A stretch of DNA of 40,056 nucleotides from a virus. Under the pieces are notes generated by a model. It was not told the origin of the DNA and did not search any database. It saw only the letters and a list, made by a program, of their open reading frames with translations. The stretch covers positions 1 to 40,056 of the IMG/VR virus record IMGVR_UViG_3300047200_000362. The stretch is one strand, 5' to 3'. This document shows, piece after piece, positions 4,504 through 22,916 of this stretch. Position 1 is the stretch's first letter. The number at the start of each line of letters is the position of its first letter. A program made the translations under genes and the position numbers.

Positions 4504-4721
4504 AGTGGTTTCCAGCCTTTAACAAATTGAGTTACATCATCACCCTCTAGTGTAGTAAAACTACCAGTTACATTACCATAATAGTTAGATAATTGAGTGT
4601 ATTCAACTACAGTCTCTTCTCCAGTGCTGTATTTGATTGTAACTAGTTTTGATTGGTTATTTTTTAGTCTTGGTAGATCTGATATTGTTGAGTGCCAATT
4701 ATGTGTGTATATAAGTTTCAT
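4500..4721 (-). CDS. Hypothetical 73-residue protein
   Basis: First gene after the promoter at 4753-4781; begins MKLIYTHNWHSTISDLPRL. Predicted mostly beta-strand, with an acidic end (GDDVTQFVKGWKPL). A good ribosome site lies in AGAGGAACAACA before the ATG. Function unknown. Confidence 0.7.
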   Translation of the reverse strand: MKLIYTHNWHSTISDLPRLKNNQSKLVTIKYSTGEETVVEYTQLSNYYGNVTGSFTTLEGDDVTQFVKGWKPL

Positions 4722-4752
4722 TGTTGTTCCTCTTTAATTAAGTGTTGGTAAT

Positions 4753-4781
4753 ATTATATCAGGTATTTTTATATATGTCAA
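4753..4781 (-). promoter_or_regulatory. Class A early promoter, variant
   Basis: TTGACA (4781-4776), 17-nt spacer ending ACCTGA instead of ACCTGC, TATAAT (4758-4753). Confidence 0.8.
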
Positions 4782-4789
4782 TATATATT

Positions 4790-5210
4790 TTAAAGATAGT
4801 GCTTCGCACTCTGCTTCTTTGTATGATTAAAGGAATGTTAAATCTTGCCAGCTAAAGAAAGCTAAAGAATATTAAAGGCAGCTAAGAAAGGCATGGAGGC
4901 TTCGCGTTTACTAGATAAGCAGCCATGAAGAACCCTTCCTACAGATACATTAAAAAATGCATGACCGCAGGTTAAGTTTCTTCTGGCCGTATAGTTGAAA
5001 GAATATAAAATATTCTAAGCAGCACCTTACGGTAAATCGGCTATACAATAAGGTAGCTTCCACCTTATTGTCCCTTCATCCTTCCGATTTAAAGACTGGA
5101 CTCCCGATTTTTTAGAATCGCACTTATGGTTAAGAGACTTTCACTCACAGGTTCTACTGCCATATACGGGATAGCTGGGCGTTATAGCAACGCTAATGTT
5201 CGCAGCATAG
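4790..5210 (-). ncRNA. Candidate large structured RNA, about 400 nt
   Basis: A strong class A promoter at 5216-5244 fires into about 420 nt with no substantial reading frame. The stretch is visibly richer in G+C than its surroundings and full of stems (minus-strand view): GCGUU/AACGC near 5190; CGAUU/AAUCG near 5110; AAAUCGG/CCGAUUU enclosing CAAUAAGGU/ACCUUAUUG at 5035-5089; AGAAUAU/AUAUUCU near 5005; GUGCgaaGCAC at the far end. I found no tRNA, tmRNA, RNase P or group I/II intron signature. The only start with a ribosome site would encode about 14 residues. The exact 3' end is unknown. Confidence 0.6.
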
Positions 5211-5215
5211 GTAAT

Positions 5216-5244
5216 ATTATAGCAGGAATAATTTAACTTGTCAA
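5216..5244 (-). promoter_or_regulatory. Class A promoter for the large structured RNA
   Basis: TTGACA (5244-5239), 17-nt spacer ending CCTGC, TATAAT (5221-5216). No ribosome site or long gene follows. Confidence 0.85.
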
Positions 5245-5342
5245 TCTTTATTTTAAATTAATTATAAAACCCGACAAGTCTTCCTGCTATAACTATATAG
5301 ACAACAACGTTTAAATAAAGTTCAAAAAATAAATATTTATTT

Positions 5343-7136
5343 TTAATTTTGATTTACTCTATGTGGATTTGGTTCTCTAGGAGTTGCTGGTGGTGTAAAT
5401 GTACCAGCATTCATCTTTTTCAATTTTGCACTTGCTAAAGTCCTAATTAATCCATTTTCATCATTTACCGCCATTTCTAAATTTTCTTTACTGACATTTG
5501 GATGTGATATTGCCTCGCGTTTTATGTGAGTATCGTTATTTCTATTGCTTAAGACCTTTTTTATATGTTCCGGTGTTAAATTTGGATTAGAAACCGCGTC
5601 TTCGCGATGATATTCATCATTACTATCTAAAGCATGTGAAATTTGCTCAGAAGAAGCACTAGGATGCTGTATGGCAGCGTTTTTGACAGTAGGTTTATCA
5701 TCCATCAATGCTGTAGCAACGTGCGCTGTAGTGGCCTTTGGATGCTTAATTGCAGCCAACCTAACTTGTAAATTTGAATCTTGTAATGCCTGAGTAATAT
5801 GGTCAGGTGTTGCTTTTGGATTTCTCATTGCAGATGTTCTAATACCAGAACTTGGGTCTTTTAATGCAGTATCAATATGAGCAGTAGTTGCTTTTGGATT
5901 TAATATTGCCATACTTCTCACATCTGGTTCTGCATCTTTTAATGCCTCAGTTATATGTGTTGCATTTGCATTTGGGTGACGGATTGCAGCCCTTCTAACA
6001 TCAGCATCTGTGTCATTTAATGCCTTACTTATATGTGTTGCATTTGCATTATTATTATGCATAGCCATAAGTCTAACTCTGCTATCAGGATCATCTAGTG
6101 CTTTATCTATATGATGTGCTGTAGCATTATGGTGTGTAATGACTTGACTTTTAAGCATAGCGTTATCATCATCATATTCATTATTACTAGGCGTATTCAT
6201 TATTTTTGTAATATGTTCTGGTGTTAAATTAGGATGTTGTAATGCTGCCTTCTTAACTTGATAATTAGGGTCGGCCAAAGCCTTATCAAGATGTTTGGAT
6301 GTTAATTTAGGATGTCCCAAAACAGCAACTCTTTCACTTACTGTTGGACTATCTTGTGTTTTTTCTATATCACTTGCTGTTGATTTTGGATGTATTGCAG
6401 TTGATGGTTTAGCATTATTATATACACCTGATTTAATTCTATAAATTGGGGAACCACCTTTATGTTCACCAGAAAGTGCAGCTTCGGTTTCATCATTATG
6501 TTTCATAAATCCTGAATGCCTAACACCATAATAACTGTTTTTTTGATACATGGTATGACCAGCATCATTCGTAAAGGGTTGGAATGTTGCTCTTGCTAAC
6601 TCTTTACCACCTTTATCATGTAGATAAGATACTACTGTACCATGCTCTACCTCGGCTGGAAGATAGTGTCGATTGCAACCACTTTTAATATTCTTACAAC
6701 TTTCTTCTTCCCAAGACTGCTTTCCAGATGTTTGTCCTGCAATACCAGTGGCAGAACGAGTAGTTCTTACTGATAGCCCAGATTCACCTTTTGCTTGCCG
6801 TGTTGCATCATTTTCAAAACCACGCGATAATTCGGCTGGAGCTTTAGTTTTACCTAAGACTGCACCTATACGAACTTGTCTGCCAAAAGTATCAGTCATC
6901 TTCCCAGTTTTATATTCTTCTGGCGCAATTGTTTTGCCAAGATGTTTCTCAATAGCCTTGTGAGTGGATGATTTTTCTTGAGTATCGGATAATGGTTCGT
7001 GTTTATCTTCAACGCCTTTGCCAAAAAATGGGTCAGTGGCAGTTGTTGCCATTGGAGTTCTTTTAGGCCAAGTTTCTACCTTTCTGGCTTGGGCAGGTGT
7101 CAATACCTCATTTATATAGTGTTTAAAACTTTTCAT
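5343..7136 (-). CDS. Repeat-rich putative virion protein (HEAT/LRV-like repeats)
   Basis: A 597-residue protein. The N-terminus MKSFKHYINEVLTPAQ resembles that of phage head or injected proteins; inferring a virion location from this is tentative. Residues 30-240 have no recognised fold. From about 260 to 575 there are some twelve to thirteen repeats of ~24 residues with the pattern HPNAxxxHIxxALxDxDxxVRxxAI, like HEAT or variant leucine-rich repeats that form a curved helical scaffold. No early promoter; a TATAAATA octamer at 7181-7188 and GGAA before the ATG favour late expression. It is divergent from the tail tube gene. Confidence 0.85.
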   Translation of the reverse strand: MKSFKHYINEVLTPAQARKVETWPKRTPMATTATDPFFGKGVEDKHEPLSDTQEKSSTHKAIEKHLGKTIAPEEYKTGKMTDTFGRQVRIGAVLGKTKAPAELSRGFENDATRQAKGESGLSVRTTRSATGIAGQTSGKQSWEEESCKNIKSGCNRHYLPAEVEHGTVVSYLHDKGGKELARATFQPFTNDAGHTMYQKNSYYGVRHSGFMKHNDETEAALSGEHKGGSPIYRIKSGVYNNAKPSTAIHPKSTASDIEKTQDSPTVSERVAVLGHPKLTSKHLDKALADPNYQVKKAALQHPNLTPEHITKIMNTPSNNEYDDDNAMLKSQVITHHNATAHHIDKALDDPDSRVRLMAMHNNNANATHISKALNDTDADVRRAAIRHPNANATHITEALKDAEPDVRSMAILNPKATTAHIDTALKDPSSGIRTSAMRNPKATPDHITQALQDSNLQVRLAAIKHPKATTAHVATALMDDKPTVKNAAIQHPSASSEQISHALDSNDEYHREDAVSNPNLTPEHIKKVLSNRNNDTHIKREAISHPNVSKENLEMAVNDENGLIRTLASAKLKKMNAGTFTPPATPREPNPHRVNQN

Positions 7137-7180
7137 TTATTGTTCCTTGGTTGGTGGGTATAATATTATTTAGATAAATA

Positions 7181-7188
7181 TATTTATA
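7181..7188 (-). promoter_or_regulatory. Late promoter octamer TATAAATA
   Basis: Exact octamer on the minus strand, about 45 nt before the start of the repeat protein. On the plus strand GATAAATA (7173-7180) lies 30 nt before the tail tube gene and may be its late promoter. Confidence 0.55.
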
Positions 7189-7209
7189 TACTAAATTATA
7201 GGAATTAAT

Positions 7210-7743
7210 ATGAGCAGCATACCAGCCAATAGCAACTTTTTAAGCCCAACAGGATTTAAACTCCAGATTGAGAAGCTTCCAACTGTTACATTTTTTGCCC
7301 AAGATGTTATTCTACCCGGATTAACTGGTGGAGTTGCTATTCAGTCAACTCCAGTAATTGATGCGCATGTACCTGGAGATAAACTTATATATTCAGATTT
7401 ACAATTAACATTTCTCATAGATGAAGATCTCGCTAATTATAATGAGATTTTTTCGTGGTGCCAAGGACTTTACCATCCAGAATCATTAGACCAATATGCT
7501 GCTTATCATCAAGCAGAATCTACCCGCTTAATTGGACGTTATAGCCCTAGAAATCATCACACAATGGTATCAGATGCTGCACTTGAGATTTTAACTAATA
7601 ATAATACATCAAATAAAACTATTAGATTTGTTGACCTATTCCCAATATCTTTAGGAAGTATGCATTTTTCTACAACGGTTACAGATATTATCTATCTGCA
7701 ATGCGAAGCAACATTTAAATACACTGGATTTAGCTTTGATTAA
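7210..7743 (+). CDS. Tail tube-type protein (T4 gp19-like fold)
   Basis: A 177-residue protein. FKLQIEKLPTVTFFAQDVILPG, the VPGDKLIYSDLQLTFLIDED stretch and a C-terminal ECEATFKYTGF-like strand are the pattern of small gp19/gp54-type tail tube or tube-initiator proteins in T4-related phages; length fits gp19. Such proteins stack as hexamers inside the contractile sheath. I cannot decide between main tube and a baseplate tube-cap paralogue. AGGAATTAAT precedes the ATG. Confidence 0.8.
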   Translation: MSSIPANSNFLSPTGFKLQIEKLPTVTFFAQDVILPGLTGGVAIQSTPVIDAHVPGDKLIYSDLQLTFLIDEDLANYNEIFSWCQGLYHPESLDQYAAYHQAESTRLIGRYSPRNHHTMVSDAALEILTNNNTSNKTIRFVDLFPISLGSMHFSTTVTDIIYLQCEATFKYTGFSFD

Positions 7744-7798
7744 TTGTTTTAGCTAAATAGTAATATAAAGACAAATATAACATAATAGGATTTCTGAC

Positions 7799-8122
7799 AT
7801 GGCTGATATATACATAGATAGGATTAATAATTTAGACACGCGGGTAATTGTCTTGGAAATTCTTCAAAAAGACACTTCAAAATCAATTGACCACCACGAA
7901 ATTTTAATTGATAAACTTTCTGGGCAGAATAATGAAATGACATTAGCACTGCACGATATTTCTGCCAAATTTGATCGGTTAATCGCACAAATTTCCACAG
8001 GATCGAAAATAGTTGCTGCAACATTCGTTCTTATAACGACTTTGGTAGCTGCTGCGTGGACTTATCAGACACACATAGAGACAAGGATTTCCCAAGCCAC
8101 TTCAGTAAGCCAGCAAAGATAA
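7799..8122 (+). CDS. Coiled-coil, tail-anchored membrane protein (XhlA-like layout)
   Basis: A 107-residue protein. Residues 5-70 form a likely coiled coil (RINNLDTRVIVLEILQ); residues 72-93 (VAATFVLITTLVAAAWTY) form one membrane span near the C-terminus. This layout resembles XhlA/haemolysin-like or lysis-accessory phage proteins, but the resemblance is of architecture only. Preceded by AGCTAAATAGTA, shared with the uvsW leader and possibly a late promoter. Confidence 0.7.
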   Translation: MADIYIDRINNLDTRVIVLEILQKDTSKSIDHHEILIDKLSGQNNEMTLALHDISAKFDRLIAQISTGSKIVAATFVLITTLVAAAWTYQTHIETRISQATSVSQQR

Positions 8123-8144
8123 TCTTCATAAATTCAGCTAAATA

Positions 8145-8167
8145 GTAGTATATAATAACTATACTAC
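8145..8167. promoter_or_regulatory. Inverted repeat in the uvsW leader
   Basis: GTAGTATA and TATACTAC separated by 7 nt, ending 9 nt before the uvsW ATG. It could be an operator or an mRNA hairpin covering the start. Just upstream, AGCTAAATAGTA repeats the block found near 7752. Confidence 0.45.
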
Positions 8168-8176
8168 GGGAATACT

Positions 8177-10723
8177 ATGTCTGAAATAACCTTAATAAAA
8201 CACAATGATGTGTACTTAAAAGTACTTGCTGAAAAATCCATCATGCAAGAAATGGCATCATTCTTTACGTTTATGGTTCCTGGTGCGAGATTTCAAAAAG
8301 CAGTAATTAATAAACTTTGGGATGGCCGGATCAGAATGCTAAACCTGTCAAATCATCTAATCTATTTAGGTCTATATGAAAAAATACTAGACTTTGCAGA
8401 AAAATCTGGGTATACATTTACAGAAGATTCATACAAACCTTTAAATGCCGATATTACATTAGAGTCCATTGAACAATACATTAAAGATGTGGTTAAACCT
8501 GCTTCAAAAGGCAAGGAAATTGCTGTCAGGGACTATCAAAATAATGTAGTACATCATTGCATTACTAATCAAAGAGCAACGATTGTATCCCCCACCAGTT
8601 GCCACAAAAAAGGCGATAAGGTATTAATGTCTGATGGAAAATTTAAAAATATTGAAGATATATTAGTAAATGAATCTGTTATAGGTAATGATGGAAAGCA
8701 TAAAAAGGTATTACGTGTATTTAAAGGCGAAAATGCTGAATTATACGATATAATACCAAAAAACTCAAAAAATAAAAAAATAACCGTAACTGGTGAACAC
8801 ATATTACCATTAAAGTTTTCTGATTATAAAGAAAAAAATGGATATGCTAAAGGAGATAAGGATTATATAGAATATATAACAGTAAGTGATTATTTAAAAA
8901 AATCAAATTATTATAAACATTGCGCTAATATGTTTTATAATAATACTGTATTAAATTTTGATAACGAAAAAGACCCTAATATAAATTTATCTCCATATTT
9001 TATAGGGTGTTATATAGGAGATGGTTCATCTTATAGTTGTGCTATTACAAGTATTGATAAAGAGATTATAGATGAAATTTATACACAAGCAAATAAACTG
9101 TCGTGTGTAGTAAAAACATCCCCATCAAATAAATATGCATATAGAATTATAGGAAGCACAAATAAAGAAAATTTTGTTTTTAAAGAATTTAAAAAAGTTG
9201 GTTTATATTTTTCAGGAAAGAATAGAATAAAATGCGAGGATAGATTCGTACCATTTGAGTTAATTAATTCTAGTGAAAACTTCAGATTAGAACTGCTTGC
9301 TGGCTTAATAGATACGGATGGGTATTATTCAAAAAATTGTAATTATGAATATTCTAGTAAATCTTTAAGATTATGTGAAGATGTCCAACTATTAGCAATA
9401 TCTCTTGGATTTAAGACAACAGTTTCATCTAAATTAAATAAAACATACAATAGACTATATTACACAACAAGAATTTCTGGAGATCTTTCAAAAATTCCAG
9501 TTAGATTACCTAGAAAAAAACACGTTGAACAGACTAGACAAGTATATAGAAGCACATATAAGAAAAAATTCGATATTATTTTTCATGGTATTGATGATTT
9601 TTATGGTATTGAAGTAGAAGATCATTTATATATTACTAATGATGGATTAATAACACATAATTCAGGCAAAAGTCTAATGATTTATTCTTTAGTGCGATAT
9701 TTGCTTGGTGCAAAACTGGCTTGCAGAGTGTTATTTATATTTCCAACAGTTGGCCTTGTGTCCCAAATGCACAAAGACTTCATTGACTATTCAACAATAA
9801 ATAATTGGGATGTTGGAGGTAGAAGCCATTTAATATTTGCTGGGCGGGAAAAAATAACCGAGCACCCATTAGTTTTTTCAACATATCAATCATTAACCAG
9901 TATGCCAGCCAAATACTTTAATAGTTTTGATTGTATTATTTGTGATGAAGTGCATCTTGCATCGGCCAAGTCAATAAAAGATATAATGGAGAAGAGCACC
10001 GAAGTTCCATATAAGTTTGGCTTTACCGGAACACTTAACGATTCTAAAGCACACAGTCTGGTGGTGCAAGGACTATTTGGTAATGCTTATATTGCCACAA
10101 CAACCAATGAATTAATGAAGAAGAATGAAATAAGCCAACTAAAAATTACTTGCCTATTATTGAAATATAAACCAGAAACTTGCAAATTATTTGTTGATAC
10201 GAACTACGCAGATGAAATAGAATATGTAGTAAGTAACACAAAACGCATAACATTCGTTAAAAATCTAGTTACGTCATTAAAGGGCAATAGTTTGGTACTC
10301 TTTACCAGAATTTCGCAGGGCAAAATGATTATGGAGTCTTTGAAAGGAAGAGAAAATGTTCATTATGTAGATGGCAAAACTTGCATAGAGAATAGAGAAA
10401 AGGTTAGAACCATTGCAGAAAGTACACACGATTGTATAATTGTGGCAAGTTACGGAGTTTTCAGTACTGGAATTAACATTAAACGATTAAATAATGTAAT
10501 ATTTGCATCACCATATAAGAGTACTATAAAGGTGAGGCAGTCACTTGGTAGGGCCTTACGGCTTTGTGAAGGTAAATCTGGAGCGCAATTGTTTGACATA
10601 GCAGACGATTTGCATCATAAGAGTCATAAGAATTTCGGATTGAAACATTTAGAAGAACGAGTAAGAATTTATTGTGAAGATAGATTAAGTTATAAGATTG
10701 TTGAATATCAATTAGAAAAATGA
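8177..10723 (+). CDS. uvsW: UvsW-type DExH helicase interrupted by an intein
   Basis: An 848-residue precursor. The exteins (residues 1-141 and 496-848; 494 in total) match T4 UvsW (about 500). UvsW is a superfamily 2 helicase that unwinds branched DNA and R-loops in recombination-dependent replication. The Walker A loop is rebuilt by splicing: SPTS joins SGKS. Motif II is DEVH near 590-593, and the C-terminal RecA domain ends with motif VI-like RQSLGRALR. The intein occupies residues 142-495 and must be excised for the ATPase to work. The gene ends just before the ligA promoter. Confidence 0.93.
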   Translation: MSEITLIKHNDVYLKVLAEKSIMQEMASFFTFMVPGARFQKAVINKLWDGRIRMLNLSNHLIYLGLYEKILDFAEKSGYTFTEDSYKPLNADITLESIEQYIKDVVKPASKGKEIAVRDYQNNVVHHCITNQRATIVSPTSCHKKGDKVLMSDGKFKNIEDILVNESVIGNDGKHKKVLRVFKGENAELYDIIPKNSKNKKITVTGEHILPLKFSDYKEKNGYAKGDKDYIEYITVSDYLKKSNYYKHCANMFYNNTVLNFDNEKDPNINLSPYFIGCYIGDGSSYSCAITSIDKEIIDEIYTQANKLSCVVKTSPSNKYAYRIIGSTNKENFVFKEFKKVGLYFSGKNRIKCEDRFVPFELINSSENFRLELLAGLIDTDGYYSKNCNYEYSSKSLRLCEDVQLLAISLGFKTTVSSKLNKTYNRLYYTTRISGDLSKIPVRLPRKKHVEQTRQVYRSTYKKKFDIIFHGIDDFYGIEVEDHLYITNDGLITHNSGKSLMIYSLVRYLLGAKLACRVLFIFPTVGLVSQMHKDFIDYSTINNWDVGGRSHLIFAGREKITEHPLVFSTYQSLTSMPAKYFNSFDCIICDEVHLASAKSIKDIMEKSTEVPYKFGFTGTLNDSKAHSLVVQGLFGNAYIATTTNELMKKNEISQLKITCLLLKYKPETCKLFVDTNYADEIEYVVSNTKRITFVKNLVTSLKGNSLVLFTRISQGKMIMESLKGRENVHYVDGKTCIENREKVRTIAESTHDCIIVASYGVFSTGINIKRLNNVIFASPYKSTIKVRQSLGRALRLCEGKSGAQLFDIADDLHHKSHKNFGLKHLEERVRIYCEDRLSYKIVEYQLEK
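8600..9661 (+). mobile_element. Intein with LAGLIDADG (DOD) homing endonuclease, in the UvsW P-loop
   Basis: 354 residues from Cys1 (TSCHKKGDKV) to the terminal His-Asn (LITHN), followed by Ser as +1. Splicing block A is CHKKGDKVLMSDG, block B TVTGEHILPL, block F/G FYGIEVEDHLYITNDG plus HN. The endonuclease motifs are YFIGCYIGDGS and LLAGLIDTDGYY, each with an acidic residue, so it may be active. Insertion in Walker A is a common intein site. Its codons are richer in A and T than the exteins, which suggests separate acquisition. Confidence 0.93.
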
Positions 10724-10724
10724 T

Positions 10725-10752
10725 TTGACTTCTGCTAAATACCTGCTATAAT
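10725..10752 (+). promoter_or_regulatory. Class A early promoter of ligA
   Basis: TTGACT, 16-nt spacer ending ACCTGC, TATAAT. The core ACCTGCTATA (10741-10750) has a perfect inverse copy, TATAGCAGGT, at 10770-10779 in the leader, where it includes the ribosome site of ligA. Confidence 0.85.
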
Positions 10753-10785
10753 ATTACACATACTTTAACTATAGCAGGTAATGAA

Positions 10786-12621
10786 ATGACCCAAGAAATA
10801 AATGCACAGAAAATGATGGAAAACTACAATACAGAATATAGGGCTGGCAATCCAACAATTAGTGACGCAGAATATGATAATTTATTAGCGCATTTTGCAT
10901 TACAATTTCCAAACAATTCTTACTTCAACCAACAAGCAGTTGAAGAAGATGCTCCAATTGGCAAAACTTGCAAACTCCCACAAAAGATGCTATCAACCCA
11001 GAAGTTATATTCGCACAAAGAAATTGAAAAATTCTTAAATGATTGCGAGGATGTTGGCACTCGTCTTGGTGTAACTGATATGTTATTTCGCATAACTCCC
11101 AAGCTGGATGGGTATGCTGCATTTAGACAGGACAAACAGTTATTTACCAGAGGTAATGGTATAGAAGGTTCAAATATTAGTCACGCTTTAACTAATGGAT
11201 TACAGTCACCAAGATTTAACTGGGCAATAGACAATAATGGGGCGGGTGAAGTGGTATGTAACAAAGAATATTTTGCAGAACATTTGGCAGATTCTTATGA
11301 AAACACTAGAAATATTATAGCTGGAGCTATAAAAAGTGGAACTTTAGATCCAAAAATACACGAAGCAATTAGATTGGGTAAAATTGTATTCTATCCATTT
11401 AATAATTTGGGTGGTTGGATGAAAAAGAAAGACGAAGTGTTAAGAGATATTGAGACTATATGGGATGAAATTATAGATACATGTTTATATAATACCGATG
11501 GAATCGTTTTAGAATGTAATTCGGAAGTTGTTAAAAAGGAGATGGGATCAACTAAACATCATTGGTCTTGGATGGCGGCTTATAAGAAAAATGAATTAAA
11601 AGATAGTCATGTTGTTAAAGTTTTAGGTGTTGTTCCTCAGTGCGGTAAAATTGGGCGAATCACTCCGGTTGTAAGAATAGTACCAACTCAGATTAGTGGT
11701 GTTTGTGTATCAAAAGTAACAGCACATAACTGGGGCAATCTCATAGCTAAAGGTATAGATATTGGTGCAGAAATTCGCGTAATACGCAGCGGATTGGTAA
11801 TACCATTCATTCAGGAAGTCCTTACGCCAGTCGATGAAGTATATGTTCCAGATGCTTGCCCTTCTTGTGGTTCATCTACTAAATTAGTCGGAGATCATTT
11901 ATTATGTACTAATAAAATTGATTGCCCAGCTCAGATAAATGGCGAAACTGAAGATTTTTTTAAGACACTTTCTATTGATGGTTTTGGTGAAAAAATTATA
12001 GAACAGTTAGCAGATGGTGGATTAGATAATTTTACAGATATTTGTAATCTATCAAAAGACGAATTTGGTTTATATATTGGTGGTAAGACTGGTGAAAATT
12101 TATTTAACTCCATTGGTAATGCAAAATTAAAACATACGGAAGATTGGAGATTTTTAGCCGCTTTCAGTCTTAATGGATTAGGTGAGGGAATGTGTTCCAA
12201 ATTATTAGAAGTATATCCATTAACTGATATATTTAATCTAACTGTAGCAAATGTAATCAAAATTTCGGGATTTGGCGATATTAATAGTGTTAATCTCGTT
12301 ACATCATTGGCGAGAATTAAAGAAAATTTTGATAATTTAAGACCACAATTTAATTTAGTTGCTAGTATTATAGGTGGTGTTAAATCAACTAATCTTATTG
12401 CTGGAAAAACTGTTGTATTCACAGGTACTATGGTACAAGGTTCAAGATCGGATATGACGAAGCAAGCAAAATCTTTAGGTGCTAATGTTGGTAGTGGAGT
12501 AACATCATCAACTCACATATTAGTATGTGGGCAGAAAGTTGGGGCAGCAAAGACTAATGCGGCTAAAGCTAATGGTACTTTAATATTAACTGAAACAGAG
12601 TATTTAGACCTTATAAAATAA
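10786..12621 (+). CDS. ligA: NAD-dependent DNA ligase
   Basis: A 611-residue protein with the full bacterial-type order: Ia-like N-terminus (SDAEYDNLL), nucleotidyltransferase with the KxDG lysine at K106 (TPKLDGY), OB region, four-cysteine zinc finger (CPSC ... CTNKIDC), helix-hairpin-helix region (near IDGFGEKI) and a C-terminal BRCT domain from about 532 (AGKTVVFTGTM). It seals nicks using NAD. T4 itself uses an ATP ligase, so this is a different solution in a T4-like genome. It is slightly shorter than typical LigA (about 670). Confidence 0.95.
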   Translation: MTQEINAQKMMENYNTEYRAGNPTISDAEYDNLLAHFALQFPNNSYFNQQAVEEDAPIGKTCKLPQKMLSTQKLYSHKEIEKFLNDCEDVGTRLGVTDMLFRITPKLDGYAAFRQDKQLFTRGNGIEGSNISHALTNGLQSPRFNWAIDNNGAGEVVCNKEYFAEHLADSYENTRNIIAGAIKSGTLDPKIHEAIRLGKIVFYPFNNLGGWMKKKDEVLRDIETIWDEIIDTCLYNTDGIVLECNSEVVKKEMGSTKHHWSWMAAYKKNELKDSHVVKVLGVVPQCGKIGRITPVVRIVPTQISGVCVSKVTAHNWGNLIAKGIDIGAEIRVIRSGLVIPFIQEVLTPVDEVYVPDACPSCGSSTKLVGDHLLCTNKIDCPAQINGETEDFFKTLSIDGFGEKIIEQLADGGLDNFTDICNLSKDEFGLYIGGKTGENLFNSIGNAKLKHTEDWRFLAAFSLNGLGEGMCSKLLEVYPLTDIFNLTVANVIKISGFGDINSVNLVTSLARIKENFDNLRPQFNLVASIIGGVKSTNLIAGKTVVFTGTMVQGSRSDMTKQAKSLGANVGSGVTSSTHILVCGQKVGAAKTNAAKANGTLILTETEYLDLIK

Positions 12622-12622
12622 A

Positions 12623-12630
12623 TATAAATA
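12623..12630 (+). promoter_or_regulatory. Late promoter octamer TATAAATA
   Basis: Exact octamer directly after the ligA stop codon, 3 nt before the structured element at 12634. Confidence 0.6.
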
Positions 12631-12633
12631 GAA

Positions 12634-12685
12634 GTATGGATAGGTGTCAGCTACCGATAAGTCCCTTTAGTAAGGATTTCCATAC
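12634..12685 (+). ncRNA. Structured late-leader element, copy 1 (three-way junction)
   Basis: Closing stem GUAUGG/CCAUAC, then AUA, hairpin GGU/ACC, GAUAA, hairpin GUCC/GGAU with loop CUUUAGUAA. Same spacing from TATAAATA (3 nt) and same size (52 nt) as the minus-strand copies at 210-261 and 1823-1873. The middle resembles a degenerate hammerhead, but the required CUGAUGA and GAAA are absent. Confidence 0.55.
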
Positions 12686-12868
12686 AACCAACAACAACTT
12701 TATTTCGATAATGGTACTGACGCACTTGCCCTCGAAACACTACATAAACAAACTTTCAAAGAATTCCAGTATACTGGTGAACCAATAATGCAAAATGGCA
12801 ATACAGAACTTTTCATCAAAAATATTCTCGAAGTAAAAGAATATCCACTTCAAGCATTTTTCTGTTGA
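12674..12868 (+). pseudogene. Start-less open frame after the late leader
   Basis: The frame is open for 64 codons, from just after TAA at 12671 to TGA at 12866, and reads like a real protein (LYFDNGTDALALETLHKQ, EFQYTGEPI), yet it has no ATG/GTG/TTG near its beginning; the first ATG is about 30 codons in. Probably the 3' part of a gene whose start was lost, or one initiated at a rare codon after the structured leader. The stop lies in the next -35 box. Confidence 0.45.
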
Positions 12869-12892
12869 CTTCTGCCAAATACCTGTTATAAT
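12865..12892 (+). promoter_or_regulatory. Class A early promoter
   Basis: TTGACT, 16-nt spacer ending ACCTGT, TATAAT; drives the operon from 12924 through the RNA ligase. Confidence 0.87.
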
Positions 12893-12923
12893 ATTACACA
12901 TACTTAATTAAAAGAGAGAAAAA

Positions 12924-13172
12924 ATGGTACACCAATACATTTTTACAGAAGAAAATATAAAATCGCTTTATGAAAAGGCATTGGAATTTTCGATGCCACC
13001 AGTTACAATAAACGAAGGAACTAAATCAGAATCACTTTACTATCCAAATAAACCAATGCATGATTGGGCTATGGATAATTATTCATTTGAAGAAATAATA
13101 TTCTACATTTGTAATAGAGATCCCAATCTTTGCAATGCGGTTTATGATTATGCACATCGAGGCAATATATGA
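12924..13172 (+). CDS. Hypothetical 82-residue protein
   Basis: First gene of the operon, with AAAGAGAGAAAAA before the ATG. Begins MVHQYIFTEENIKSLYEKAL; ends in a helical stretch (LCNAVYDYAHRGNI). No domain recognised. Overlaps the next gene by ATGA. Confidence 0.72.
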   Translation: MVHQYIFTEENIKSLYEKALEFSMPPVTINEGTKSESLYYPNKPMHDWAMDNYSFEEIIFYICNRDPNLCNAVYDYAHRGNI

Positions 13173-13405
13173 AATATGACTTATTACCATGCCCATTTTG
13201 TGGATTTGTGTTGGATATAAATGATTCTGATTGCATTTATCCAGCAACAAGACCAATCTATAACCCAGTATCAAAAGCTATGGAATATCCACTATATGAA
13301 GTAAATTGTTATGAAAGTGGTGGTGGCTGTGGGGCAAATTTACTTGGAGAGACTGTAGAAGATTGCATAAGATTGTGGAACACAAGAAGAGGTATAGAAG
13401 AATGA
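13169..13405 (+). CDS. Lar-like zinc-finger protein
   Basis: A 78-residue protein with LPCPFCG at the start, a second pair in GGGCGA and the ending ETVEDCIRLWNTRR. This is the layout of the Lar restriction-alleviation-like family common in phages and prophages. Rac prophage Lar modulates type I restriction; most relatives are untested. Overlaps both neighbours. Confidence 0.8.
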   Translation: MKYDLLPCPFCGFVLDINDSDCIYPATRPIYNPVSKAMEYPLYEVNCYESGGGCGANLLGETVEDCIRLWNTRRGIEE

Positions 13406-13572
13406 GAGGTTTAACAACTGAAAGACTGATGATGTTACTGCGAGAGATTCCAGCAGGAGCAATTTTAAGCACAAATGCCCAAGGAAATTTTAAAATAATC
13501 TACAAAGGCAGTTTTTATGGTTATATTGATATTACTGACAAAACAATACACTTAGCAGGAGAAACAAAATGA
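13402..13572 (+). CDS. Hypothetical 56-residue protein
   Basis: Starts MRGLTTERLMMLLREI by ATGA overlap, with AAGAGG 9 nt upstream. The second half is predicted beta-strand (FKIIYKGSFYGYIDI). Unknown function. Confidence 0.68.
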   Translation: MRGLTTERLMMLLREIPAGAILSTNAQGNFKIIYKGSFYGYIDITDKTIHLAGETK

Positions 13573-13721
13573 GTAAAGCAACACCAGCCTTTCTTCAAGG
13601 GCAGACCGCATTTGATAGACTAAAAGGGATTTCACAAAATCCTTATCAACAAAACACAGTGCAAAATAAAGACTGGGCAAATGGTTATAAATTTCAGCAA
13701 GCAATTATGAGGAACAAATAA
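13569..13721 (+). CDS. Hypothetical 50-residue protein
   Basis: ATGA overlap at the start; its stop abuts the RNA ligase ATG directly (TAAATG), so the two are probably coupled. Polar, rich in Q and N (ISQNPYQQNTVQNKDWANGY). Unknown function. Confidence 0.68.
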   Translation: MSKATPAFLQGQTAFDRLKGISQNPYQQNTVQNKDWANGYKFQQAIMRNK

Positions 13722-14738
13722 ATGAGTGAAATAGTTAGAAAATTGGCGACAGTTGAACGAATTATAGAAATTACACCAATAGAAGGTGCAGATTTAATAT
13801 GTGCCTACAAGGTGAGAGGATGGAAGGTAGTTGATACTGTCAATAAGTATAAAGTTGGCGATCTTGTAATATTTTGCGAAATCGACTCATTTATCCCCCA
13901 TGAACTTGCGCCATTTCTTTCCAAGGGAAAAGAACCAAAAGAATACTTGGGAGTGAGAGGTGAAAGACTTCGCACAGTAAAACTTCGTGGCTGTATTTCG
14001 CAGGGACTATTGTTGCCTATTGGTGTAATTAATCATATGGATGGGCTAGAAGGATGGGATGTAACTGAAATTTTAAATATCAACAAATGGGAGGCTCCCG
14101 TAAATGCACAGTTAGCTGGAATGGCAAAGGGTAATTTTCCACATTGGGCTAGAAAAACTAATCAACAACGATGCCAAAATATTAAAAGTTATATTCAAAC
14201 GTGGTATGAAAATGATGTTTTGTGGGAAGTGACCATAAAATTAGATGGCAGTTCAATGAGTATTGGTCATAATAATGGAGAAATTGTGGTGTGTTCTCAT
14301 AATATTGAGTTAAAATTAGATCAAGAAGGAAATGCATTTGTAGATGCTGCAAATAAACTTAATATTTTAGACAAATTATCAAAATATGGTAATATTGTAA
14401 TTAGCGGTGAATTAATTGGGAATGGAATACAAAAAAATAGAGAACATTTACAATCCCATGAATTTTATGTATTTGATATTTTTGATGTCGATGAACAAAA
14501 ATATATTGGATGTAAAGATAGATTAAAAATAGTTGAAGAACTTGGTTTACACCATGTGCCAATTTTATATAAATCAATTACTTTAAAGGAGTTAGATTTA
14601 GATACTATAGATAAAATTTTAGAGTTTGCTGAAGGCCCATCAATGAACAATAACAAACGAGAAGGTTTAGTGTTTAAACTCATTGATGGTTGCGATTCGT
14701 TTAAGGCAGTTGCTAATAGTTATATTTTGGAGAAATAA
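13722..14738 (+). CDS. RNA ligase, Rnl5 (DraRnl)-like, with N-terminal OB domain
   Basis: A 338-residue protein. Residues 1-110 resemble the N-terminal OB domain of Deinococcus RNA ligase-like enzymes (ERIIEITPIEGAD, VRGWKVV). The nucleotidyltransferase part has motif I TIKLDGSS (K173), a motif III-like FYVFDIFD, motif IV REGLVFK and motif V SFKAVANSYIL. It would adenylylate and seal nicked RNA, possibly repairing tRNA or anticodon cuts made by host defence; the substrate is inference. Confidence 0.88.
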   Translation: MSEIVRKLATVERIIEITPIEGADLICAYKVRGWKVVDTVNKYKVGDLVIFCEIDSFIPHELAPFLSKGKEPKEYLGVRGERLRTVKLRGCISQGLLLPIGVINHMDGLEGWDVTEILNINKWEAPVNAQLAGMAKGNFPHWARKTNQQRCQNIKSYIQTWYENDVLWEVTIKLDGSSMSIGHNNGEIVVCSHNIELKLDQEGNAFVDAANKLNILDKLSKYGNIVISGELIGNGIQKNREHLQSHEFYVFDIFDVDEQKYIGCKDRLKIVEELGLHHVPILYKSITLKELDLDTIDKILEFAEGPSMNNNKREGLVFKLIDGCDSFKAVANSYILEK

Positions 14739-14742
14739 ATGC

Positions 14743-14771
14743 TTGACTTTATTAAAAATACCTGCTATAAT
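14743..14771 (+). promoter_or_regulatory. Class A early promoter
   Basis: TTGACT, 17-nt spacer ending ACCTGC, TATAAT; then AAAGGAGAG and the ATG at 14803. Confidence 0.88.
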
Positions 14772-14802
14772 ATTACCATACAATTGAATAAAGGAGAGAT
14801 AA

Positions 14803-14991
14803 ATGAGTAATTACGAAATACGAGATCAGGGCAATTTTAAATTTGCAATTGAAACGAGCAGCGGAGAGACGATTGTAAAAGGTTTGTATTTCTGTCAAGC
14901 AGTAAATGTAAAGTCTGAATTGGAGTACCTAGCAAGTATCATTAATATACTTGGCGAAGATGTTAGTGTAATGGGAGAGTGTTATGAGTAA
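14803..14991 (+). CDS. Hypothetical 62-residue protein
   Basis: Begins MSNYEIRDQGNFKFAIETSS, predicted beta-rich and then helical. Excellent ribosome site AAAGGAGAG. First gene of the gp55 operon; overlaps the next gene by 8 nt. Unknown function. Confidence 0.75.
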   Translation: MSNYEIRDQGNFKFAIETSSGETIVKGLYFCQAVNVKSELEYLASIINILGEDVSVMGECYE

Positions 14992-15172
14992 GATAGTGGA
15001 GTGGGATCAGGAAGACTATTTTCTTGCTTTCAATAGATACAATTTTCTTAAAACATTGAACACTGATCAGATATTAAATATAATTGCATCGGCAGATAGC
15101 GGATACGGGCGAGACTATGATAGCAATTTTGATTACTTTTTAGATGCTATGATGAAGGGTGATGGGCTATGA
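14984..15172 (+). CDS. Hypothetical acidic 62-residue protein
   Basis: Starts inside the previous gene behind GGGAGAGTGTT. Acidic, aromatic-rich (WDQEDYFLAFNRYNFL; YDSNFDYFLDAMMKGD). ATGA overlap with the sigma factor gene, so expressed with it; a partner role is possible but unproven. Confidence 0.72.
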   Translation: MSKIVEWDQEDYFLAFNRYNFLKTLNTDQILNIIASADSGYGRDYDSNFDYFLDAMMKGDGL

Positions 15173-15783
15173 GTAATCCATCTAAGAAAAATTACATAGA
15201 CAATGTTCGATTTAGTAAAGAAGCTGCAAAACACGCAGAACTATTTCGATATAATAGAGCTAATGGGCTGGCACCACCAAAGATGAATGATTATCTTGGG
15301 AAGTGCATATTGCTGTTGGCAACCAAAATATCTAGTATGCCTTGCTTTTCAGGATATTCCTTTCGTGATGAATTTGTATCGGATGGTATTGAAATAGCAA
15401 TAAGATATTTTTACAATTACAACCCGGAAGTAATATCCGAAAGGACTGGCAAACCTAGCGCGGGAGCCTATGCATTTTTTAGTCAAATCATGATTCGGAG
15501 ATTCTTCAAAACGAGGCAGGAGAACAAGCTTCAAATGTTTATCCGCGAAAAATATATTGCATCATCGGATGACTCATTTGCTGATATGCAAGGGCAAGAT
15601 GCTGAAGAGCATTCTGAGGCGTTAAAGGAAGTTTTGGGTGAGATGAGTGGTCACGGCTATATAGAGCACGATACCAAAGTTGCTATAAAAAAGGCAGAAT
15701 TAAAAGCGAAGCAATTAACCAAAAAAGAATTGAATATGGTAGCGAAATTGGATACTGTATTGCCAATGGCTGCATTTTTTTGA
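15169..15783 (+). CDS. gp55-like late transcription sigma factor
   Basis: A 204-residue protein with the T4 gp55 layout: KNYIDNVRF near the start, MNDYLGKCILLLATKIS, the diagnostic FSGYSFRDEFVSDGIEIAIRY, then AYAFFSQIMIRRFFKTRQE. T4 gp55 (185 aa) replaces sigma70 on RNA polymerase at TATAAATA promoters and uses the sliding clamp through its C-terminus. TATAAATA occurs in this window at 265, 1877, 7181 and 12623. The gene ends in a run of seven T (TTTTTTTGA). Confidence 0.88.
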   Translation: MSNPSKKNYIDNVRFSKEAAKHAELFRYNRANGLAPPKMNDYLGKCILLLATKISSMPCFSGYSFRDEFVSDGIEIAIRYFYNYNPEVISERTGKPSAGAYAFFSQIMIRRFFKTRQENKLQMFIREKYIASSDDSFADMQGQDAEEHSEALKEVLGEMSGHGYIEHDTKVAIKKAELKAKQLTKKELNMVAKLDTVLPMAAFF

Positions 15784-15953
15784 ATAGTACAATAATAACA
15801 CTACATCAGTTTTTTGTAGATGAACCAATAGAATCTTTAAAACTTCCATTGGTTCCCTCCAAAGTCTGCTCAAAGTGCGGTGTTGAGAAGCCTTTGGAAG
15901 AGTATTATAAAGCAATAGAAAATCACTTGACTTCTGCCAAAAACCTGCTATAA
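15780..15953 (+). CDS. Small CxxC zinc-motif ORF overlapping the gp55 stop
   Basis: Possible start TTG at 15780, inside the T run that ends the sigma gene; 57 codons. It contains KVCSKCGVEKPLEEYYKA, the first half of a zinc motif common in HNH-linked phage proteins, then is cut short by reading into the next promoter (HLTSAKNLL, stop TAA in the -10 box). It may be a truncated remnant, or a C-terminal extension of gp55 reached by slippage on the T run. Confidence 0.5.
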   Translation: MNSTIITLHQFFVDEPIESLKLPLVPSKVCSKCGVEKPLEEYYKAIENHLTSAKNLL

Positions 15954-15954
15954 T
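15927..15954 (+). promoter_or_regulatory. Class A early promoter
   Basis: TTGACT, 16-nt spacer ending ACCTGC, TATAAT. Lies wholly inside the zinc-motif ORF. Confidence 0.87.
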
Positions 15955-15988
15955 ATTACACATACTTTAAAACAAAGAGGAAATAAAA

Positions 15989-16189
15989 ATGATAACTGAA
16001 ACAACCCACTTTATATCACGTAACCACGCAATCACATTCTACAAAACTCTTAATATCAAAAAGGATAAAGTTAAACTGATGATTGAAAGCAAAATAATCA
16101 ACATTGGTGCGCCAAATATAACTAAACACGAAATACTAACCGTAGATATAAATGGTCGTTACCAAATTGTTACAACCACCGGAGAATAA
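15989..16189 (+). CDS. Hypothetical 66-residue protein
   Basis: Begins MITETTHFISRNHAITFYKT; AAAGAGGAAATAAAA precedes the ATG. Predicted helix, then beta hairpins (KHEILTVDINGRYQIVTTTG). Unknown function. Confidence 0.72.
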   Translation: MITETTHFISRNHAITFYKTLNIKKDKVKLMIESKIINIGAPNITKHEILTVDINGRYQIVTTTGE

Positions 16190-16190
16190 C

Positions 16191-16397
16191 ATGTCAAAAC
16201 ATCAACACAAGCACCGATTTTTAAACACGCATGAAACTACACCATTGGCATTAGGAACGGTATATTATACGCCCAGTTTACATCCAAGTAAACATACTTG
16301 GAAGGATAGCAAGAAAGATTTTTCATTCTTAGAATTAAATTTAGTATTTCTTCATAAAAAAGATGCAATGCATGTTTTTGCATATCGGTTCGTATGA
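16191..16397 (+). CDS. Hypothetical basic 68-residue protein
   Basis: Start chosen at the ATG after CCGGAGAATAAC. The N-terminus is His/Lys-rich (MSKHQHKHRFLNTH). A longer frame exists upstream but has no ribosome site. Unknown function. Confidence 0.68.
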   Translation: MSKHQHKHRFLNTHETTPLALGTVYYTPSLHPSKHTWKDSKKDFSFLELNLVFLHKKDAMHVFAYRFV

Positions 16398-16753
16398 TGA
16401 GTTACACATACATTGCACAGGATACTACAATGAATTTTGAAAAATTTGCAAACCTTTTCACCGAGATTTATACTCAAACGAAAACTAGTGAAAAATTTCT
16501 CGATTCGGTTCCAAGCAGTATAAGAGGAGTATTTGCGTATAATCAGCACGTTAATGCATATTATGCCATACAAAATCTTCTCATTAAAGAAGTTTTTCCA
16601 GAAAAAATGCTGTATGATATTGAGTATTTTTTATTTGACTTTGATTTCGGCTTCCAAATCTTCGACAGCAATGGCAACGAATACTTCATTTGCGATTTAA
16701 ATGGCATACTTGAGTACTTCTACATGGAACACTTCAGAGTATCAACCCAATGA
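16394..16753 (+). CDS. Hypothetical 119-residue protein
   Basis: Opens with two ATG codons overlapping the previous stop. Aromatic-rich, with an acidic C-terminal half (YDIEYFLFDFDFGFQIFDS, ICDLNGILEYFYM). No domain recognised. Confidence 0.72.
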   Translation: MMSYTYIAQDTTMNFEKFANLFTEIYTQTKTSEKFLDSVPSSIRGVFAYNQHVNAYYAIQNLLIKEVFPEKMLYDIEYFLFDFDFGFQIFDSNGNEYFICDLNGILEYFYMEHFRVSTQ

Positions 16754-16992
16754 CAACACATTACACGCAATTAGAAGTTGAAATATACTTTGACGATGCA
16801 AACAACCAAACTTGTGCCTTGCATTTCCCTGACAAGGTTTGCAAATTTTATATGACCATCGGTATGAGGGCCATTGAGACATGTTATTTCGCAGATCACG
16901 AAAATGGTGAAACATTGGTTAGGCGAGGCCATTGCGAAAATGGCACTTTGATTCCTTGCAAGAATTGCCCACTTTGGGGGAATGGCAAATGA
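16750..16992 (+). CDS. Small Cys/His protein (80 aa)
   Basis: Begins MTTHYTQLEVEIYFDDANNQ; carries CYFADHENG, GHCENG and CKNCPLW, possibly one metal site. Overlaps both neighbours. Unknown function. Confidence 0.7.
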   Translation: MTTHYTQLEVEIYFDDANNQTCALHFPDKVCKFYMTIGMRAIETCYFADHENGETLVRRGHCENGTLIPCKNCPLWGNGK

Positions 16993-17147
16993 CTAAAGAA
17001 GAGATTCTAAAGGACATCAAAAGTCTTTGCGAAGAATTTGATATTAAACTTTACCCAAATGATGTAATAATTCCGCAGTATCTTGACTTTGAAAGGGCAG
17101 AATATATCAACAATTTATACTTAGCTCTGCCAACAACTTTAAATTAA
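16989..17147 (+). CDS. Hypothetical 52-residue protein
   Basis: Start by ATGA overlap (MTKEEILKDIKSLCEEF) after GGGGGAATGGCAA. Helical N-terminal half. Last gene before the next promoter. Unknown function. Confidence 0.68.
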   Translation: MTKEEILKDIKSLCEEFDIKLYPNDVIIPQYLDFERAEYINNLYLALPTTLN

Positions 17148-17149
17148 AC

Positions 17150-17177
17150 TTGACTTCTGCCAAATACCTGCTATAAT
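17150..17177 (+). promoter_or_regulatory. Class A early promoter
   Basis: TTGACT, 16-nt spacer ending ACCTGC, TATAAT; drives 17208-17909. Confidence 0.88.
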
Positions 17178-17207
17178 ATTACACATACTTAAAAAAGAGG
17201 AAACAAA

Positions 17208-17342
17208 ATGAAAACATTAAATGATATTATAGCAGAAGCGGTTGATTTGGACAATGAAATTAAAAACACAACAGATTTGGACAAAGTTGCTGAATTATTA
17301 GTGCAACTTGCCAATTGCAAAGAGGAATTTTGGAGAGTATGA
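17208..17342 (+). CDS. Hypothetical acidic 44-residue protein
   Basis: Behind AAAGAGGAAACAAA. Begins MKTLNDIIAEAVDLDNEIKN; all-helical and acidic. Unknown function. Confidence 0.7.
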   Translation: MKTLNDIIAEAVDLDNEIKNTTDLDKVAELLVQLANCKEEFWRV

Positions 17343-17344
17343 AA

Positions 17345-17527
17345 ATGTATAAATTAATGCCATTAAAAAGAGAAGTAATAAATGCAGTTGCAGATGTAAT
17401 TGCCAATTCAAACACAGAAATGGAATTTAAAAGAGAACGCATAACTTATATAAGTGATTTAATAGCAAATTGTGATGACATGAGAATACTGGAAGAAGTA
17501 TTAAATATAGTAGGAGTAGTAAAATGA
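17345..17527 (+). CDS. Hypothetical 60-residue helical protein
   Basis: Start placed at MYKLMPLKREVINAV, 9 nt after GGAG; an ATG two codons earlier overlaps the previous stop and is also possible. Helical (EEVLNIVGVVK end). Overlaps the next gene. Confidence 0.68.
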   Translation: MYKLMPLKREVINAVADVIANSNTEMEFKRERITYISDLIANCDDMRILEEVLNIVGVVK

Positions 17528-17619
17528 AAACAGCGTATAAATTATTTGTAATAACAACAATAGGTATCATTGGATTATTTCAGATGGTAGTTGAAATTAT
17601 TAAATTGAGATTGAAATGA
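17524..17619 (+). CDS. 31-residue single-span membrane peptide
   Basis: MKTAYKLFVITTIGIIGLFQ then a basic tail (KLRLK). One hydrophobic span. ATGA overlaps on both sides support it as a real gene. Tiny membrane proteins recur in this genome. Confidence 0.65.
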   Translation: MKTAYKLFVITTIGIIGLFQMVVEIIKLRLK

Positions 17620-17909
17620 ATGGAGGAACTAATACAGTAAATCCAACCCATCTATTAATGATCGACTATATAGCAAAACTTGAAAAGAAAGTTGCTAATC
17701 TTGAATTTATAAATACCAAATGGAATGAATATACGCATAAAGTTGAGTGTAGAAATGATTTTCTTGAAGTGGAAATTACTAGACTTGAGGATAAAGTTGA
17801 AGAGTATCAGCATGATGTTATAGAACTTCAACATGGAATTGATAGACTCTCGAGTTACAATGCTGGACTTAAAGTAAAGATGAGAATGATAGCCGGATTA
17901 ATCCCTTGA
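17616..17909 (+). CDS. Coiled-coil protein (97 aa)
   Basis: Residues 20-85 show heptad spacing (KLEKKVANLEFINTKW; ITRLEDKVEEYQHDVIELQ), so it probably forms a coiled coil. Unknown function. Confidence 0.72.
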   Translation: MNGGTNTVNPTHLLMIDYIAKLEKKVANLEFINTKWNEYTHKVECRNDFLEVEITRLEDKVEEYQHDVIELQHGIDRLSSYNAGLKVKMRMIAGLIP

Positions 17910-17933
17910 CATTTACCAAAAACCTGCTATAAT
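17906..17933 (+). promoter_or_regulatory. Class A early promoter
   Basis: TTGACA, 16-nt spacer ending ACCTGC, TATAAT. The TGA of the coiled-coil gene lies in the -35 box. Confidence 0.88.
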
Positions 17934-17963
17934 ATTACACATACTTAAAAAAAGAGGTGAAAC

Positions 17964-18230
17964 ATGAATAATAAACCAACATTAAGTCAAATAGACTTAG
18001 CAGGAAAATATGCATTGGATAACAATTACAATATTGTTTATAATGGAGAATTTGATGGTGACGATGAATTTGCGCCAACTAGGATTGCTAAGACTGGTGA
18101 TGTATTTGTGATGATTGATGGTTTTGAATATTACAACCATCAGGCTATTGCAGAGCTTTATACACAGCTACACCACCCATTACCGATTGCTGAAGATACA
18201 AGAATAATTGATGATTTTGACTTTGAATAG
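17964..18230 (+). CDS. Hypothetical acidic 88-residue protein
   Basis: Behind AAAGAGGTGAAAC. Begins MNNKPTLSQIDLAGKYAL; strongly acidic middle and end (GEFDGDDEFAP; IIDDFDFE). Acidic early phage proteins sometimes mimic DNA, but nothing here proves that. Confidence 0.7.
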   Translation: MNNKPTLSQIDLAGKYALDNNYNIVYNGEFDGDDEFAPTRIAKTGDVFVMIDGFEYYNHQAIAELYTQLHHPLPIAEDTRIIDDFDFE

Positions 18231-18239
18231 GAGAATATG

Positions 18240-18413
18240 ATGGGAAAGGTACGAGATTTGATAATGAGAGTTTTTTTGGTAAACCAAGTTGGCTGGACAG
18301 TTGAGATAAAACACTGTGATACCAAGAAAATATTGGTATTTCAACCTGAATTCGCAACTAGAGACTTGGCACTGGAATTTTTGCAAACTGCACTTAATGA
18401 TTTGGAGGATTGA
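18240..18413 (+). CDS. Hypothetical 57-residue protein
   Basis: Second of two adjacent ATGs chosen (6 nt after AGGAG). MGKVRDLIMRVFLVNQVGW, then a helical end. Unknown function. Confidence 0.65.
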   Translation: MGKVRDLIMRVFLVNQVGWTVEIKHCDTKKILVFQPEFATRDLALEFLQTALNDLED

Positions 18414-18414
18414 G

Positions 18415-18576
18415 ATGACAGAAACAATAGAAACAAAGGTAGATGCATACCAAAAACACTATTTGGCTGCATTTGAGATTGAGATAGAAGGTACTTATAT
18501 TTCTTCAGATGGATATGCTGCATATTTTGCATATATAAAAGCCAAAAATGAAGCAAAGGCATTGGAGGCAGAATGA
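18415..18576 (+). CDS. Small helical protein (53 aa), paralogue of the gene at 27244
   Basis: Start at MTETIETKVDAYQKHY after GGAGG. It shares KVDAYxxHYxAA, then EGTYISSDxxAAYxxYxKA, with the 58-residue protein at 27244-27420 on the opposite strand under the other promoter class. Unknown function. Confidence 0.72.
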   Translation: MTETIETKVDAYQKHYLAAFEIEIEGTYISSDGYAAYFAYIKAKNEAKALEAE

Positions 18577-21345: not shown

Positions 21346-21369
21346 ATAAACACCACTGCCAAGCCATCA

Positions 21370-21407
21370 AAAAGCCTTACCATTGAATCTTTTCTGGTAG
21401 GGCTTTT
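21370..21407. terminator. Strong hairpin terminator after the plus-strand tract
   Basis: AAAAGCCTTACCA and TGGTAGGGCTTTT pair over 13 positions (one G-U), with a 12-nt loop. The A/T ends let it work in both directions, so it closes the rightward gene tract. Confidence 0.85.
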
Positions 21408-21448
21408 GCATATGTGGGACAAGGGCTTTGATGGGCTTCTACGGTGCC

Positions 21449-22894: not shown

Positions 22895-22916
22895 GCCATT
22901 ATAGGTTATTTATTCT

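Follow-up and report, generated by a model that had tools for sequence, protein, structure and literature searches.

Why should a densely coding phage genome carry a consensus promoter that leads into some 400 nucleotides (nt) without a gene? The question is raised by positions 4790-5244 of the 40,056-base virus record IMGVR_UViG_3300047200_000362, of which positions 1 to 40,056 were analysed (hereafter: the window). An initial annotation, made from the letters of the sequence, had proposed a promoter-driven, structured RNA at this site. A noncoding structured RNA of an undescribed family is well supported by the sequence comparisons reported here. As to its nature, we lean towards a stand-alone structured RNA that is encoded on the minus strand, has its own sigma-70-type promoter, is probably made early and would bind a partner in trans. 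The range given by the initial annotation, which names no strand, includes the promoter; the RNA itself runs from about 5209 to about 4790, up to the promoter of the next gene. The locus consists of the following elements:

About 5209 to about 4790, minus strand: noncoding RNA of about 420 nt; start placed from the -10 element, 3′ end presumed.
5244-5216, minus strand: promoter of the RNA, TTGACA-17-TATAAT with an extended -10 (TGc), TG preceding the second hexamer; 12/12 consensus matches.
5245..5300, strand unassigned: inverted repeat of the promoter, TATAGCAGGAA..ACTTGTC / GACAAGTTAAATTATTCCTGCTATA, from its sequence a possible operator or divergent promoter.
4753..4781, minus strand: promoter of the next gene, between RNA and gene, assigned by consensus; 27 nt before the start codon.
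4721-4500, minus strand: next gene downstream, 73 amino acids (aa).

The promoter belongs to a family that is strongly overrepresented in the window. Exact TTGACA/TATAAT sites occur six times, with 0.24 expected, and the extended element TGCTATAATATTAC has 14 matches with at most two mismatches against 1.3 expected. When 12 of these 14 sites were surveyed (leaving out the two 2-mismatch sites 11309-11322 and 17221-17234, minus strand), an open reading frame (ORF) of at least 40 aa was found to begin 25-34 nt downstream at 11 of them. The promoter of the RNA is the exception, as its next ORF of at least 40 aa lies 490 nt off and behind a promoter of its own. By its sequence the promoter is a strong one, as had been claimed; "early" follows from its sigma-70 type and should be read as probable. 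In the segment from 24.2 to 27.9 kb, another repeat, approximately GAAAGTATGATGTATTATTTCATACTTTC, stands in front of the genes; it is an inverted repeat and apparently represents a second class of promoter or operator, separate from the TTGACA/TATAAT sites.

No gene was found at 4790-5244, in agreement with the initial annotation: the longest ORFs that overlap 4790-5209 have 36-37 aa, and nowhere else in the window is there so long a run lacking ORFs of at least 45 aa as at 4738-5342 (605 nt). The raised G+C content was confirmed as well, with 39.8% at 4790-5209 against a window mean of 31.7% (standard deviation 3.4), a value reached by 1.0% of windows of the same size. The description of the genome as packed with overlapping genes holds for most of it, except for 21346-24219, where coding density is low and ORF-free gaps of 397, 221, 210 and 173 nt occur.

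The phage encodes several T4-type proteins (gp3/tail-tube family, UvsW-type helicase, RNA ligase, late sigma factor, RNase H). Its gp3 protein (7210-7743, phrog_45) has its matches chiefly among T4-like phages of cyanobacteria, with identities that reach about 44%, and judged from its proteins the phage is a distant, uncultured member of the T4-like group without a close relative in the phage collection. A single relative was found in IMG/VR (locus L097), on a contig of 18,418 bases that breaks off within the RNA. It has the promoter family of the window and retains both the promoter and the 5′ 180 nt of the RNA, with 90% identity over 149 nt. Its promoter, TTGACA-17-TAATAT followed by ATTACC, lies at the same position relative to the RNA. 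Identity rises along the transcript, from 16/37 alignment columns (1-37) over 55/72 (38-109) to 75/76 (110-185). In comparison, the shared N-terminal part of a HEAT-repeat gene has 72% aa identity and 76% DNA identity over 486 nt, and by these figures the RNA core is better conserved than this neighbouring protein gene. The insertions and deletions between the two RNAs measure 1 or 2 nt and stop codons are present in all six frames, which excludes a conserved protein as the cause of the conservation. Moreover, gene order differs: in the window the HEAT gene precedes the RNA on the same strand, whereas in L097 the RNA is upstream of this gene and points away from it. The HEAT-like-repeat protein of the window has 597 aa (5343-7136, minus strand), of which the relative keeps about the N-terminal 160 residues before the two diverge.

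Searches for further copies returned these two sequences. With blastn, the RNA gave only promoter-region or chance matches among 50,697 phage records and no match among plasmids. When the HEAT protein by itself, the DNA ligase and polyphosphate kinase 2 (PPK2) were used to scan viral sequences, no relative came up; scans with gp3-type proteins reached distant T4-like contigs only, and a scan with the two-sequence HEAT alignment recovered the record of L097 again and nothing else. The 16-nt core pattern GGAAGGATGAAGGGAC occurs in seven stretches of IMG/VR, one homologous (L097) and six in unrelated contexts; pattern AGTAGAACCTGTGAG occurs at 32 loci with L097 as the sole homologous one, and an 18-nt pattern gave nine loci in genome contigs, none homologous by nhmmer. 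A covariance model built from both RNAs (R1) was run over 87 sources and yielded its two training sequences plus one weak match (E 0.35), which is a hairpin of the window itself read on the other strand. The same model matched none of 23 whole records of T4-like contigs, which account for 23 of the 83 viral loci matched by gp3 and are mostly the longer ones. In the portions of the literature that were available to the search, no description of this ~420-nt RNA was found.

The comparison with L097 bears directly on the fold. The parts of the RNA, all on the minus strand, are:

5179..5193: 5′ hairpin GCGUU-GCUAU-AACGC; the L097 sequence differs with the hairpin still possible, one pair being changed on both sides (MAFFT alignment).
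5102..5171: domain I, with P1 enclosing P2, P3 and P4 (RNAalifold and pair counts).
5171-5167/5106-5102: P1, UCCCG/CGGGA; in L097 UCACG/CGUGA.
5164-5160/5129-5125: P2, UAUGG/CCAUA; in L097 UGCAG/CUGCA.
5159-5157/5150-5148: P3.
5146-5144/5136-5134: P4, with the 7-nt loop UGAAAGU.
5114..5124: P5, AG-UGCGAUU-CU; in L097 AGG-UGCAAUU-CCU; from the alignment, absent from the RNAalifold structure.
5029..5101: near-invariant core, 75/76 columns identical.
5069-5047: core hairpin AAUAAGGUGGAAGCUACCUUAUU, pair probability 0.93-0.99.
5052..5064: hairpin motif GGUGNNAGCUACC, which recurs in a small RNA at 12643-12655.
5024..5033: ACC-GUAA-GGU hairpin with a GNRA-type tetraloop, pair probability 0.76-0.78.
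5000..5016: AGAAUAU-UUU-AUAUUCU hairpin, pair probability 0.76-0.99.
4922..4987: long interrupted hairpin GCCAGAAGAA...UUCUUCAUGGC, inner stems; pair probability mostly 0.76-1.00, 0.37 for the innermost pair of the second segment.
4799..4809: GUGC-GAA-GCAC hairpin close to where the RNA presumably ends, from the sequence, with a poor U-run after it; not called as a terminator.

From the two-sequence alignment RNAalifold predicted 39 pairs, of which five are changed on both sides and none is broken. Four of the both-sides changes lie in P1 and P2 of domain I, without an uncompensated change in the modelled helices. Sliding the partner columns by 1-3 left no such pair in domain I, and among 1000 column shuffles one reached at least four and 24 were as low in energy; a separate shuffle control, weaker with two rows, gave 11/500. 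Inspection by eye adds paired insertions in L097: P4 is longer by one G and one C (GAG-UGAAAGU-CUC to GAGG-UGGAAGU-CCUC), and P5 is extended in the same way (AG-UGCGAUU-CU to AGG-UGCAAUU-CCU). The 7-nt loops of both helices look like tRNA T-loops by eye. The covariation in a related phage that had been suggested as a check was hence found: base pairs changed in compensation, insertions came in pairs, and the promoter was conserved.

The energetic evidence comes from elsewhere in the molecule. The segment 4901-5060 on the minus strand has a folding z-score of -4.72 (100 shuffles), below all of 200 minus-strand background windows evaluated with 25 shuffles each (lowest -4.61), and it includes the long hairpin at 4922-4987, before which L097 ends. 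The 231-nt piece 4890-5120 scored -3.31. Comparative and energetic support therefore cover largely different halves of the RNA, because L097 stops before most of the segment with the strong folding energy. Within the core, AAAUCGG (5090-5084) is complementary to CCGAUUU (5040-5034). On paper, this pairing could combine with GUCUUU/AAGGAU and GUAUAG/CUAUAC into a pseudoknot, with invariant sequence in the segments that can be compared; the two unpseudoknotted alternatives have -101.0 and -99.5 kcal/mol, a difference of about 1.5 kcal/mol, and lie 5.9-7.4 above the unconstrained fold (-106.9).

Several observations weigh against a stand-alone structured RNA. The whole 427 nt fold like shuffled sequences (z -0.93; 18/100 as good), the 5′ 181 nt have z-scores of -0.08 in the window and +0.15 in L097, and the pairs of P1 and P2 reach probabilities of 0.04-0.11 in the single-sequence ensemble. 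Thermodynamics alone is insufficient to reveal this RNA. The comparison comprises two sequences, the second of which is cut off after about 180 nt, and the length, the 3′ end and the fold of the 3′ half are based on one. No clear terminator was detected on the minus strand after the RNA, and read-through into the 73-aa gene is therefore possible. The nested stems of the initial annotation thus stand for 4901-5060 and, through the compensatory helices, for the 5′ half, but not as a property of the RNA as a whole. The large structured RNA itself is supported, with a structure that the comparison demonstrates for the 5′ ~180 nt.

Does the RNA belong to a known class? A cmscan of the whole window with 4227 Rfam families gave nothing at the gathering score. 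In 4720-5345 with E up to 10, only chance-level microRNA (miRNA) and FasX matches around the promoter appeared. Neither group I/II intron, RNase P nor riboswitch models matched the RNA, and ARAGORN detected no tRNA and no tmRNA in the 40-kb window. For the L097 copy nothing credible was returned; the best match, RUF1 (E 0.024; 22 bits, where the gathering score is 70), lies mostly across the AT-rich promoter. The impression that no recognisable class is present is borne out, and the outcomes named in advance as refuting the RNA (a known class, a protein or a tRNA cluster) did not appear.

Two large ornate phage RNAs had been brought up as comparisons. ROOL is longer than about 420 nt, and its covariance model does not match the RNA of the window. 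In PMC12286853, ROOL is described as a large noncoding RNA of phages and prophages with a pseudoknotted fold and of unknown function, which has a model in Rfam 15 and is often located near tRNA islands; in contrast, the 40 kb here hold no tRNA gene. GOLLD resembles the RNA in that its conservation likewise rises from the 5′ end to the core. Many of its members exceed 800 nt according to PMC12286853, whereas at most about 605 nt are ORF-free here, and neither a model match nor a tRNA island was found. By the tests run, the RNA stands outside GOLLD and ROOL; it may work like them. The loops of P4, P5 and the core hairpin are, by eye, similar to the T-loop motifs that PMC2258182 places in junctions of the AdoCbl and FMN riboswitches. 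In contrast to these, the RNA has no Rfam match and the gene downstream has its own promoter. Two further ideas were dropped: a CsrA sponge, as GGA motifs showed no clear excess in a by-eye estimate, and an anti-Shine-Dalgarno role of CCUCC near the 3′ end, which is one short motif.

A stand-alone RNA would be transcribed from the host-type (sigma-70) promoter, probably early in infection, and would act in trans as a folded molecule. Three features suggest action in trans: the RNA has a promoter to itself, the gene after it has another, and the order of genes has changed in the relative. It would hold a partner, most likely a host or phage protein, on the near-invariant core and the hairpin GGUGNNAGCUACC. 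Given the invariance of the core and the reuse of the hairpin in a second RNA, partner binding is the most economical reading, which we infer with less weight. The second RNA is the following element:

12635..12686, plus strand: candidate for a further, small conserved RNA of about 52-58 nt, predicted to fold as a three-way junction; TATAAATA (12623-12630) directly precedes it.

In a blastn comparison of the two phages, 12623-12689 (plus strand) matched L097 86-152 (minus strand) with 97% identity over 67 nt, the sole further match apart from promoters and the HEAT gene. TATAAATA precedes the small RNA in both phages, between different genes: in the window the RNA follows the DNA ligase gene, in the relative it lies between ORFs of 224 and 314 aa, which we take to be the sliding clamp and clamp loader. 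Also in the relative, at L144 20-598 and 2972-3490, the translations contain ORFs that by eye are possibly homing-endonuclease-like. TATAAATA corresponds to the T4 late-promoter word; it occurs 8 times in the window with 11 expected, and because it is not enriched, the evidence for a promoter here is positional only. The three-way junction has z-scores of -1.6 and -1.8 in the two phages, and neither an Rfam match nor a phage homologue was found for the small RNA. A hammerhead-type ribozyme was considered and rejected, as the core letters misfit the hammerhead consensus and Rfam gave no match.

What links the two RNAs is the hairpin. GGUGNNAGCUACC occurs at two sites of the window only, in the large and the small RNA, even if one mismatch is allowed (0.05 expected). 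The motif GGTGNNAGCTACC is present exactly twice in the window and twice in the relative (contig 4776-18418 covered) and absent from 136 of 143 loci, the remaining seven being pieces of these two phages. These occurrences suggest, as a tentative and rather unlikely extension, a two-RNA system that works as a temporal switch, with the ~420-nt RNA made early and a ~55-nt RNA controlled by a promoter of late type, TATAAATA. Through GGUGNNAGCUACC, the two would bind one and the same protein as infection proceeds from stage to stage, or would bind one another, and both would be conserved beyond a neighbouring protein-coding gene.

Among the rival explanations, the one that survives best is a cis-acting leader, in which the RNA would be the 5′ untranslated region of the 73-aa gene (4721-4500) and the genes that follow, riboswitch- or antitermination-like. 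The lack of a good terminator noted above and the codirectional genes downstream would suit it, as would the T-loop and GNRA loops, which also occur in riboswitches according to PMC2258182. The 73-aa gene, however, has its own consensus promoter 27 nt before the start codon, and no Rfam riboswitch matched; we consider a leader improbable. Slightly lower still we place a regulator that pairs, as antisense or otherwise, with transcripts of the phage or its host, and possibly with the small RNA (GUCCCUUUA against UGAAGGGAC). The predicted duplex between the large and the small RNA reaches -37.0 kcal/mol against a shuffle mean of -28.9 and is better than 295/300 shuffles, but this energy is inflated because both RNAs carry the same near-palindromic hairpin. 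Furthermore, no long complement exists elsewhere in the window and the elaborate junction would be needless for a pairing RNA.

The locus might instead act as DNA, as a replication origin or cis site with the promoter transcript as primer and hairpins acting in DNA, much as R-loops prime replication at T4 origins. A promoter without a gene suits an origin, the region lies near the switch of gene direction from minus to plus at about 7.2 kb, and inverted repeats are present at the promoter, where 5201-5360 on the minus strand has a folding z-score of -3.98. A junction of several helices with 7-nt loops and compensatory changes is, in contrast, typical of RNA, and conservation is spread along the transcript rather than focused on the promoter; we regard a DNA element as very unlikely. 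Least credible of all is that the RNA is a ribozyme or resembles an intron, be it of a known class or of one derived from it (group I/II intron, RNase P, self-cleaving ribozyme), since its size, its junction-rich fold and the frequency of introns in T4-like phages are outweighed by Rfam matches that up to E 10 comprise only chance-level models of miRNAs, small RNAs and long noncoding RNAs, by flanks that are separate intact reading frames and not two halves of one gene, and by a start at its own promoter.

Two other genes of the window deserve mention. A complete PPK2 gene is present in this T4-like phage (2301-3065, minus strand; Pfam E 1.8e-94), with Moraxella phage Mcat6 as its best match in the phage collection (56% identity). 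The UvsW-type helicase (8177-10723, plus strand) carries an insert of about 350 residues that is intein-like in appearance, with a match of residues 148-505 to a PHROG that bears the name terminase large subunit.

GOLLD, ROOL and other large RNAs of phages have been described but still lack an explanation. The stand-alone RNA described here would add to them a shorter and unrelated family from a T4-like lineage, one that has a promoter to itself, a core more constrained than a neighbouring protein gene and possibly an RNA as partner. Few phages are as well understood as those of the T4 type, so that, given a cultured relative, the function of such an RNA would be comparatively easy to place.
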